Below are positions 48,161 to 50,482 of a DNA stretch of 64,000 bases, piece after piece (the stretch's first letter is position 1; each line of letters begins with the position of its first letter). The notes beneath the pieces were generated by a model. The model searched no databases, had not been told where the DNA came from, and saw nothing but the letters and a program-made list of their open reading frames with translations. Both the position numbers and the translations under genes were made by a program. The DNA lies in contig CALSUY010000001.1 of NCBI GenBank assembly GCA_943840565.1, positions 372,001-436,000 of the forward strand. Direction: 5' to 3'. This stretch comes from an uncultured Candidatus Actinomarinales bacterium (lineage in GTDB: Bacteria; Actinomycetota; Acidimicrobiia; Actinomarinales; Actinomarinaceae).

Positions 48161-48379
48161 ATGAAAGATAAATTACCTTCAAAATTTACGGGATTTTTCA
48201 TAGCATTAATAGGTTCAGGAATGGTTTTGAGTCTACTTTCAACTGGTATTGATAGATTATTTTTACAGAATTCTAATGTTTCATTGTTGGAAAATGAAAA
48301 TTTCGGGTTAGTTGTTTTAGGAATATCAATATTAATTGCCTTGTTATGGTTATTCAAAATAAGAGATATGAAAGACTAG
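48161..48379 (+). CDS. Small two-TM membrane protein, unknown
   Basis: Unrecognised 72-aa protein with two hydrophobic segments (about residues 10-28 and 48-66) and charged ends. The good -10 box directly upstream and the typical membrane-protein composition support it as real over the opposite-strand frame. Its 3' end overlaps the aldo-keto reductase stop by 4 nt (convergent). Confidence 0.6.
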   Translation: MKDKLPSKFTGFFIALIGSGMVLSLLSTGIDRLFLQNSNVSLLENENFGLVVLGISILIALLWLFKIRDMKD

Positions 48380-49272
48380 TCTACAAGTAACGGGTCTCCC
48401 CATTCCCAGGTTATTCCCCCACCTTTGTTTTCTAATTTAATCATATCCATATCAGAATCTTGGATCGAAAATGAAAAATCAAAGTTCTCTCTTAATCTTG
48501 GAATTTTTATAGTCTTGGGAAGTACAGCATAATTTTGCTGCAGCGCCCACTGTAACAGTATCTGTGACTCTGTAACAGAATATTTTGTAGCGAGTTGTTT
48601 AAATATTGAATTTGCAGATTTAACTTCATCTTCAAGCTCCCTAGTTTTAAGGCTATTTTCACCTTCTTTTTTTCTCCAAGTTGAAAGAGGTACCAAACTA
48701 CTGTATGCAATAATATGAATATCTTTAGAATTTAAAAATTGTACTAATTCTGGTTGTTGAGCCCAAGGATGTAATTCAATTTGATTTGTGTCTGGAGTCG
48801 GTAAATCTAGGTCTATAAGTTCCTGGATATGTTTTATATTCCAGTTTGCAACACCTGCATAGTGTATTTTTTTATCACTTTTAAGATCCAGAAGAGCTTT
48901 CCACTGTTCTATCCTTGTATTGTTTGCATGGGCTGAATGAATGAGATAAAGATCTATATAATCTAACTCAAGTCGTGCAAGACTTTTCTGAAATGCTTCT
49001 ATTACATCATCATATTTTTTTTGTTCCTGACCCCACATTTCATTCCCTGGAAAAACTTTAGTGGTGATAAATAAATCTGATCGTGTTGTGAGTCCTTCAT
49101 TAATTGCTTTTTTGATACCGTTAGCAACTCCTTTTTCGTTCCTATAAACTTCCGCTGTATCTATGTGTCTGTAGCCAACTTTTATAGCTTCATAGGTCAT
49201 TTCTTCAGCTTCTTCTGGTGACATCATATATGTACCAAGTCCAATTTGTGGAATATTAGAATGTATCGACAT
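48376..49272 (-). CDS. Aldo/keto reductase
   Basis: NAD(P)H-dependent (beta/alpha)8 reductase, 298 aa. The catalytic tetrad is visible: Asp in HIDTAEVY (with Tyr), Lys in TTKVFP, His in YLIHSAH. NQIELHPWAQ and ESQILLQWALQQ follow. I start at ATG 49270-49272, which has a GAGGAAAGG Shine-Dalgarno; longer frames are not supported. The leader can form two competing hairpins (see the leader entry). The substrate is unknown. Confidence 0.9.
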   Translation of the reverse strand: MSIHSNIPQIGLGTYMMSPEEAEEMTYEAIKVGYRHIDTAEVYRNEKGVANGIKKAINEGLTTRSDLFITTKVFPGNEMWGQEQKKYDDVIEAFQKSLARLELDYIDLYLIHSAHANNTRIEQWKALLDLKSDKKIHYAGVANWNIKHIQELIDLDLPTPDTNQIELHPWAQQPELVQFLNSKDIHIIAYSSLVPLSTWRKKEGENSLKTRELEDEVKSANSIFKQLATKYSVTESQILLQWALQQNYAVLPKTIKIPRLRENFDFSFSIQDSDMDMIKLENKGGGITWEWGDPLLVD

Positions 49273-49277
49273 TAATA

Positions 49278-49316
49278 CCTTTCCTCTATGAAAGAGGAGC
49301 TCAGACAGAGAACTCC
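49278..49316 (-). promoter_or_regulatory. Structured leader with alternative hairpins before the aldo-keto reductase
   Basis: On the minus strand a 7-bp hairpin GGAGTTC/GAGCTCC (49310-49316 with 49296-49302) is followed by CCTCT (49293-49297), which can pair with AGAGG (49283-49287) within the Shine-Dalgarno. The two share 49296-49297, so they exclude each other. This looks like a small on/off leader, but the sequence does not match a riboswitch class I know. Confidence 0.45.
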
Positions 49317-49327
49317 CCCTTCTTAAT

Positions 49328-49362
49328 ATCTTATAACACAAGATGTATCAGTGATATAAGAT
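49328..49362. repeat. Inverted repeat, possible operator upstream of the aldo-keto reductase
   Basis: ATCTTATA (49328-49335) and TATAAGAT (49355-49362) form a perfect 8-bp dyad with a 19-nt spacer. It covers a possible minus-strand -10 (TAAGAT) for the aldo-keto reductase transcript, so a regulator might bind here. Confidence 0.3.
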
Positions 49363-49400
49363 TATCTAAGTTTAGTTAAATCTGAGTATAAAATGTGAGT

Positions 49401-49468
49401 GGCGAAGTTTCTATCACTAGTACTTCGCAAATGAAAGGGGGGTTTGCCGACTCCCTTTTCTATTTTTA
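49401..49468 (+). ncRNA. Candidate small RNA or attenuated leader
   Basis: A TATAAAAT box at 49387-49394 is followed by two hairpins: GCGAAGT/ACTTCGC (49402-49408 with 49422-49428, with an inner CTA/TAG) and AAAGGG/CCCTTT (49434-49439 with 49453-49458) with a T-rich tail (about 49456-49467). The second looks like a terminator although no plus-strand gene ends here. It may be a roughly 70-nt RNA, or an attenuator for the basic-peptide gene downstream. No known family was recognised. Confidence 0.4.
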
Positions 49469-49489: not shown

Positions 49490-49495
49490 TATTAT
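49490..49495 (+). promoter_or_regulatory. -10 box of leaderless promoter for the 37-aa basic peptide
   Basis: TATTAT, then 6 nt (AGAAAT), then ATG at 49502. Confidence 0.45.
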
Positions 49496-49501
49496 AGAAA
49501 T

Positions 49502-49615
49502 ATGAAAGATTTTTCAATACCAGAAGGTAGAAGGCAAAAGAGAAAAAAGAAACACGTCGCAAAAAGAAAAGGGCGATTAGATTTTAGAACAGGAAGAACA
49601 GGTAAAAGAAAGTAA
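49502..49615 (+). CDS. 37-residue highly basic peptide
   Basis: A short frame encoding a Lys/Arg-rich peptide beginning MKDFSIPEGRRQKRKKKH and ending RTGRTGKRK; 17 of 37 residues are Lys or Arg. A TANNNT-N6-ATG promoter precedes it and a perfect hairpin begins at its stop, which argues for a real transcript. The composition resembles small ribosomal or RNA-binding proteins such as the actinobacterial bS22 group, but I cannot align it convincingly. Possible nucleic-acid-binding microprotein. Confidence 0.5.
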   Translation: MKDFSIPEGRRQKRKKKHVAKRKGRLDFRTGRTGKRK

Positions 49616-49635
49616 GTATTTTATTTACTTTCTTT
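49605..49635 (+). terminator. A/T-rich hairpin after the basic-peptide gene
   Basis: Perfect 11-bp inverted repeat, AAAGAAAGTAA (49605-49615) and TTACTTTCTTT (49625-49635), with a 9-nt loop, starting inside the last codons of the peptide. It may end or stabilise the small transcript. Confidence 0.5.
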
Positions 49636-49648
49636 ATTCAAATCTATT

Positions 49649-50482
49649 ATGAACATTGCAAATATAACTGGTTATAAATTTACACCAATAACTGATACGA
49701 AGTTGCTTCAAGAGAAAATTATTAACCTCTCTGAAGAGAACAATCTTAAAGGAACCGTACTCATAAGTGATAAAGGCATAAATTTTTCAGTTGCTGGTTT
49801 GATAGAGAATACAAGTAACTTTTTGAAGGTAATCAAAAAAGATGAACAATTTAGTGATATAGACATCAAAACTACATTTAACGAGTATCAACCATTTAGA
49901 AAAATGTTAGTAAGAATTAAAAAAGAAATTATATCAATGGGTGTTGATGAAATAAATCCTTATGAATTTACTGGAGAAAAGATAAAGCCATTTGAACTAA
50001 ATAAAAAATTAGATGCTGGAGAAGATGTCATATTACTTGACACAAGGAATGAATATGAAGTGAGACTTGGAACATTTGAAAATGCAATTGATTTAAATCT
50101 TGATAGTTTTAGAGATTTTCCAACAAAGATTAACGGCTTGAGAGAACAAATTGGAGACAAAGAGATAGTTATGTTTTGCACAGGAGGAGTACGCTGTGAA
50201 AAAGCCTCTGCGTTAATGCTTAAGAGTGGCTTCAAAAATGTAAAACAAATTGACGGGGGTGTAATTAACTACTTTAAAGAAACTGGTGGAGCACATTGGA
50301 AAGGTGATTGCTTTGTATTTGATGATCGTGTTGCACTAGATAAAGAACTAAATGAAACCGATTATGTTTTATGTTTCAGATGTCGCGAGCCACTGAATAA
50401 AGACGAAATAGCATCTGAAAATTATAAAATTGATGAATATTGTCCATACTGCTACGGAGATGTGGTTACGAAGAAAAGTTAA
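49649..50482 (+). CDS. trhO: tRNA uridine-34 hydroxylase TrhO (rhodanese-like)
   Basis: Makes 5-hydroxyuridine at the tRNA wobble position, 277 aa. The N-terminal acylphosphatase-like domain shows NLKGTVLISDKGINFSVAG; the rhodanese domain shows VILLDTRNEYEVRLG and the active Cys in MFCTGGVRCEKASA. The C-terminus has two CxxC pairs (CFRC, CPYC), as in the family. No Shine-Dalgarno and no TANNNT box at the usual distance were seen. Confidence 0.92.
   Translation: MNIANITGYKFTPITDTKLLQEKIINLSEENNLKGTVLISDKGINFSVAGLIENTSNFLKVIKKDEQFSDIDIKTTFNEYQPFRKMLVRIKKEIISMGVDEINPYEFTGEKIKPFELNKKLDAGEDVILLDTRNEYEVRLGTFENAIDLNLDSFRDFPTKINGLREQIGDKEIVMFCTGGVRCEKASALMLKSGFKNVKQIDGGVINYFKETGGAHWKGDCFVFDDRVALDKELNETDYVLCFRCREPLNKDEIASENYKIDEYCPYCYGDVVTKKS

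Follow-up and report, generated by a model that had tools for sequence, protein, structure and literature searches.

The described proteins closest to the one reported here are bS22, a protein of the 30S ribosomal subunit, bL37, a 24-residue protein of the mycobacterial 50S subunit, and the bS21 proteins encoded by phages such as pelagiphage HTVC008M. Annotation of other bacteria has missed bS22 (PMC10618245). Phage bS21 is described as repeatedly exchanged between phages and hosts, enriched in aquatic samples and incorporated into ribosomes (PMC6375957). The 37-residue peptide analyzed here resembles bS22 in its size (approximately 30–40 residues) and its strong richness in Lys and Arg, bL37 in being tiny, basic and lineage-restricted, and phage bS21 in being small, basic and common to aquatic phages and bacteria. 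Its sequence is unrelated to that of bS21, and, whereas bS21 has a Pfam family (PF01165) and a known site, the peptide family has neither. Small-protein catalogues such as GMSC reportedly hold unannotated conserved proteins of fewer than 100 codons, a class to which this family also belongs, and it may already be present in smORF catalogues without a function. A literature search on small proteins of Actinomarina gave no paper, and among those found on its ribosomal proteins none concerned the peptide by title.

The gene was found in a stretch of 64,000 nucleotides (G000:C1:372001-436000, hereafter the window) from a 640-kb assembly, estimated to be 70.6% complete, of Candidatus Actinomarina, a minute bacterium of the ocean. 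Its frame runs from an ATG at 49502 to a TAA at 49613-49615, and 17 of the 37 residues are Lys or Arg, as had been predicted from the window alone. A search with only the peptide as query matched 28 of 59 genomes at E 1 or better, and the 17 strong matches (E 1.4e-9 or better, own genome counted) all came from the same genus. With a 12-row profile, the gene was detected at E 5e-20 or better in 21 of the 42 same-genus genomes listed, beside which the genus may include further genomes with no match; the count leaves out a partial weak match in G063 (E 0.08). All 17 loci read had 37 codons from the same ATG to a common end residue, with an extra ATG two codons upstream of the common start in L002. 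Across 12 distinct bacterial proteins, the frame, the end point and 21 of the 37 residues were fixed. The window copy and its closest relative (L002) differed by 15 synonymous and no nonsynonymous changes, with neighboring proteins of this pair sharing just 73-76% identity, and pooled values over all pairs of the 17 loci were 0.70 for pS and 0.17 for pN. A-rich DNA favors Lys and Arg codons, and the frame could in principle have been open by chance. This explanation is refuted by the fixed residues, frame and end and by the predominance of synonymous changes, leaving it practically no credence; the other two sense frames were open in only one and none of the 17 loci, although an antisense frame was open in 10 of them. 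Judging from these comparisons, the frame is a real gene under strong purifying selection, and the original prediction of a genuine microprotein holds, its frame being kept in relatives. Weak matches in other Acidimicrobiia (E 0.003 to 0.1) were incomplete, in some cases interrupted by stops or embedded in long frames, and were attributed to chance, as was one weak match in the wider phylum.

Table 1. Features at the microprotein locus, in coordinates of the window.
Feature	Position	Strand	Evidence or remark
Aldo/keto reductase gene, divergent	48376..49272	-	PF00248, E 7.7e-47
-10 box TATTAT, leaderless promoter form	49490..49495	+	6 nt before microprotein ATG
37-aa basic microprotein gene	49502..49615	+	Stop codon included; constant length, synonymous-dominated changes, phage relatives
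Perfect 11-bp inverted repeat across stop codon	49605..49635	+	-12.5 kcal/mol; terminator role unsupported
trhO-type tRNA uridine hydroxylase gene	49649..50482	+	UPF0176_N, Rhodanese; TrhO equivalog above cut-off

Leaderless transcription is common in actinobacteria, and we read the arrangement upstream of the gene, TANNNT separated from the ATG by exactly 6 nt, in this way. The same spacing was found in 9 of 17 homologous loci with otherwise differing upstream sequences; the remaining eight comprised seven loci of one clade with TATTAT at 13 nt and L007 with a box at 5 nt. In the window, TANNNT at a spacing of 6 preceded 12 of the 59 ORFs that start with ATG and encode at least 120 aa, against a background of 2.5% for all 965 forward-strand ATGs, and the box is therefore a genuine promoter form of this organism. 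This pattern indicates that the microprotein gene has its own promoter, as proposed earlier, and that the promoter is of the leaderless form. The signature could also aid gene calling in this organism.

The same proposal held that a hairpin beginning at the stop codon terminates the transcript. A perfect 11-bp repeat does exist (arms at 49605-49615 and 49625-49635, 9-nt loop), but it begins inside the last codons of the gene. It has no long T run, and trhO starts on the same strand 34 nt past the microprotein stop. Perfect 11-bp repeats of this type occurred twice in the window versus 0 to 2 times in ten first-order Markov shuffles. The two closest homologous loci (L002 and L003) lacked any inverted repeat of at least 8 bp at that site, and, besides the window's own, just two of the 17 loci (L013 and L014) carried one. 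Because the hairpin is absent from the nearest relatives and sits before trhO, a role as the microprotein's own terminator is not supported. As for the small independent unit once suggested, its own promoter stands, but the terminator is not conserved.

Within Actinomarina, trhO also lies directly downstream of the peptide gene in L055, L056 and L057. The same-strand downstream neighbor was trhO in 4 of 21 loci (window counted) and typA/bipA in 7 of 21, so that a translation gene follows in 11 of 21; nine others face a methylguanine-methyltransferase-domain gene of DNA-repair type, and one has other genes. An aldo/keto reductase gene was located within 2.3 kb of the peptide gene in 15 of the 20 named loci as well as in the window. 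Of the remaining five loci, four are truncated at the end of a contig, and L059 has no reductase nearby. A search for this reductase at E 1e-40 gave no match in any of the 21 peptide-free genomes. In a 30-genome LepA tree, presence of the gene was clustered (5 changes vs. 9.6 in shuffles), with a well-supported clade of 11 genomes without it, indicating that the gene is dispensable. Some isolated absences may be due to incomplete assemblies. The typA/bipA gene, which encodes a translation GTPase, is itself patchy in the genus: it was strongly matched in 9 of 21 genomes that have the peptide gene and in 4 of 21 that lack it (L058, L060, L061, L063, L064, L066, L070; L169-L172, L179-L187).

Relatives of the peptide were found in at least 83 uncultured marine phage contigs. 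The bacterial profile retrieved four contigs from IMG/VR, and 61 were retrieved once phage rows had been added to it. The DNA pattern H-x2-KRKG-[KR]-x-D-x-RT found 81 stretches, of which 24 were read as new contigs (picked by name, by eye), with 22 belonging to the family and two due to chance. Against the bacterial profile, 28 phage segments scored 33.8-63.8 bits (best of 56,000 shuffles, 15.5), and against the phage profile, 12 bacterial copies scored 52.6-61.7 bits (48,000 shuffles, at most 18.1). A likeness so far above composition is, by these sequence scores, homology. The phage relatives combine a fixed C-terminal signature with varied N-termini and are found in several different genomic contexts. 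Across 46 distinct sequences, the 11 columns of the C-terminal R-x6-H-x2-KR-x-G-x2-D-x-RT-x3-GK-x-K were invariant, an invariance that is partly imposed, as residues within the search patterns were partly selected by the search. The invariant residues include His, Gly, Asp and Thr besides charged ones, and therefore more than bulk charge is kept. In a peptide tree of 33 columns, the bacterial copies grouped together in 94% of 200 bootstrap replicates, so that one transfer is enough; the direction of transfer is beyond the reach of so few columns. An annotated phage collection searched with four peptide queries gave nothing usable, a result of little weight since queries of this kind are masked by the low-complexity filter of BLAST. 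No family member was found in five reference phages scanned with the profile, or in seven stretches of reference phages scanned locally in six frames. In HTVC008M, an unrelated 46-aa protein directly follows the ribonucleotide reductase small subunit, which is the site of the peptide in group C phages.

Among the 61 phage loci, 22 lie between head-closure and packaging-side genes or have a partial neighborhood of this kind on the contig, 10 are near DUF4385 or an associated small gene, 10 come after ribonucleotide reductase, 9 are beside a Gram-negative porin (PF13609, E 1.7e-15 in L103), 5 follow a baseplate gene and 5 have other positions. Where they could be placed, the peptide-carrying phages were T4-like. 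The terminase of one group was 54% identical to that of Pseudomonas phage PA5oct, the baseplate and ribonucleotide reductase genes of two groups were nearest to those of pelagiphage HTVC008M, and the marker gene of the DUF4385 group was nearest to cyanophages. We also found bS21 in 3 of 14 phage contigs with the peptide, and this, together with the porin, suggests that at least some of these phages infect Gram-negative bacteria. To our knowledge, bS21 is generally missing from actinobacteria. Phages of Actinomarinales have been recognized by whiB and, in the available portion of the source, are not described as T4-like (PMC7771536). The porin adjoins the peptide gene in L093, L095, L096, L099-L101, L103, L104 and L137, and HTVC008M likewise has an annotated outer membrane porin.

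AlphaFold2, run on a 34-row alignment, predicted a helix at residues 6-21 followed by two short paired strands forming a C-terminal beta hairpin (mean pLDDT 86.4, with a low pTM of 0.47). The hairpin segment is the most conserved part of the family, above the helix. Foldseek returned nothing significant in the PDB or among viral models, and searches of Pfam, NCBIfam and the PDB gave no family match and thus no homology to any known ribosomal protein family. The best PHROGs match (38,880 profiles, 11 members scanned) had an E of 0.041, and matches were of unknown function and differed by member. By these searches, the peptide family appears to be undescribed.

Comparison with bS22 and bL37 had been suggested at the outset, and neither identification survives. 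The peptide has a similar size and charge, and bL37 was undetected in all 35 same-genus genomes, both of which would suit a diverged copy of either protein. Against this, a separate COX24_C gene, encoding bS22, exceeded the cut-off in 21 of the 22 relatives from the genus (it was not found in the window's own incomplete genome), and PF08213 (COX24_C) did not match the window protein or 12 bacterial members at E 10, or any of 34 members at E 1. Against the profiles of the peptide family, bL37 scored 1.2 and 1.4 bits, and profile searches of PDB chains were empty at E 10, a search in which a bL37 query itself retrieves bL37 chains. Moreover, the half of the genus without the peptide is alike without bL37. 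We consider such a diverged copy very improbable. Loss or divergence of bL37 in Actinomarina is possible, considering that weak to fair matches were obtained in 17 of 24 other members of the class (G035-G058, Acidimicrobiia) and none in Actinomarina (G000-G034).

What the peptide binds has to be judged from its charge, its predicted shape and its neighbors. We infer that this small protein binds RNA, is probably directed to the ribosome and has been exchanged between phages and Actinomarina, in line with the ribosomal or RNA-binding role suggested at the outset. This is the likeliest reading, given the charge of the peptide, its invariant His, Gly, Asp and Thr, its predicted compact helix-hairpin, the translation genes downstream and the bS21 precedent, and we hold it with slightly less than even confidence. 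Several observations count against it, namely the loci facing a DNA-repair-type or other gene, the clade without the gene, the many phage loci among structural genes, the lack of a fold or PDB match, the low pTM and the search-imposed part of the invariance. A phage-born peptide acting on DNA, in the virion or in counter-defence (condensation, packaging or shielding), and later domesticated for a nucleoid or defence role, would fit the high Lys/Arg content equally, as well as the dispensability of the gene in the bacterium and the phage loci next to packaging-side and baseplate genes. However, other phage groups carry the peptide beside ribonucleotide reductase, porin or DUF4385 genes, and this variety argues that it is not part of one structural module. 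In the related phage PA5oct, the same head-closure cluster passes directly to the next gene without the peptide. With the gene accessory in the bacterium and variously placed in phages, a role in DNA binding or counter-defence stays in play, as an explanation we find rather unlikely. Less probable still, and in our view poorly fitting, is an arginine-rich RNA-binding regulator of antitermination or mRNA that is not ribosome-bound. In its layout, a basic helix behind varied phage N-termini, the family is similar to arginine-rich antiterminators, but conservation here peaks in the C-terminal hairpin segment and not in the helix.

Under the ribosome-directed reading, the microprotein is transcribed from its own leaderless promoter, and its basic helix and signature-bearing hairpin would together make up a single small unit for binding folded RNA, most probably rRNA. 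Marine phages place the same unit behind varied N-terminal segments, and their versions presumably act on the host translation apparatus, by analogy with what has been proposed for phage bS21. Actinomarina may have acquired one version once, or donated it to phages, and keeps it as a dispensable chromosomal gene. A bolder and distinctly doubtful extension is that marine T4-like phages and bacteria pass between them a portable RNA-docking unit of approximately 28 residues, which phages would join to varied N-termini so as to dock on the host ribosome and steer translation, and of which Actinomarina would have domesticated one copy as a lineage-specific ribosome-associated protein.

Few small basic proteins are known to be common to phages and bacteria, and the peptide adds an undescribed family to them. 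This family is frequent in ocean viral contigs but easily lost when searches mask low-complexity sequence. Owing to the fixed signature, its function could be tested directly with a synthetic peptide of 37 residues. Should it bind ribosomes, this would reveal another means by which marine phages alter host translation.

The region between the aldo/keto reductase start and the microprotein also contains a conserved structured element of approximately 175 nt (window 49288-49466), common to four near relatives (the window, L055, L056 and L057). It had no Rfam match at E 5. Its fold was stronger on the reverse strand (z -4.5), which would be the 5' leader of the reductase, than on the forward strand (z -2.6), with few compensatory changes, and the element may act as a riboswitch-like leader or as a small RNA.
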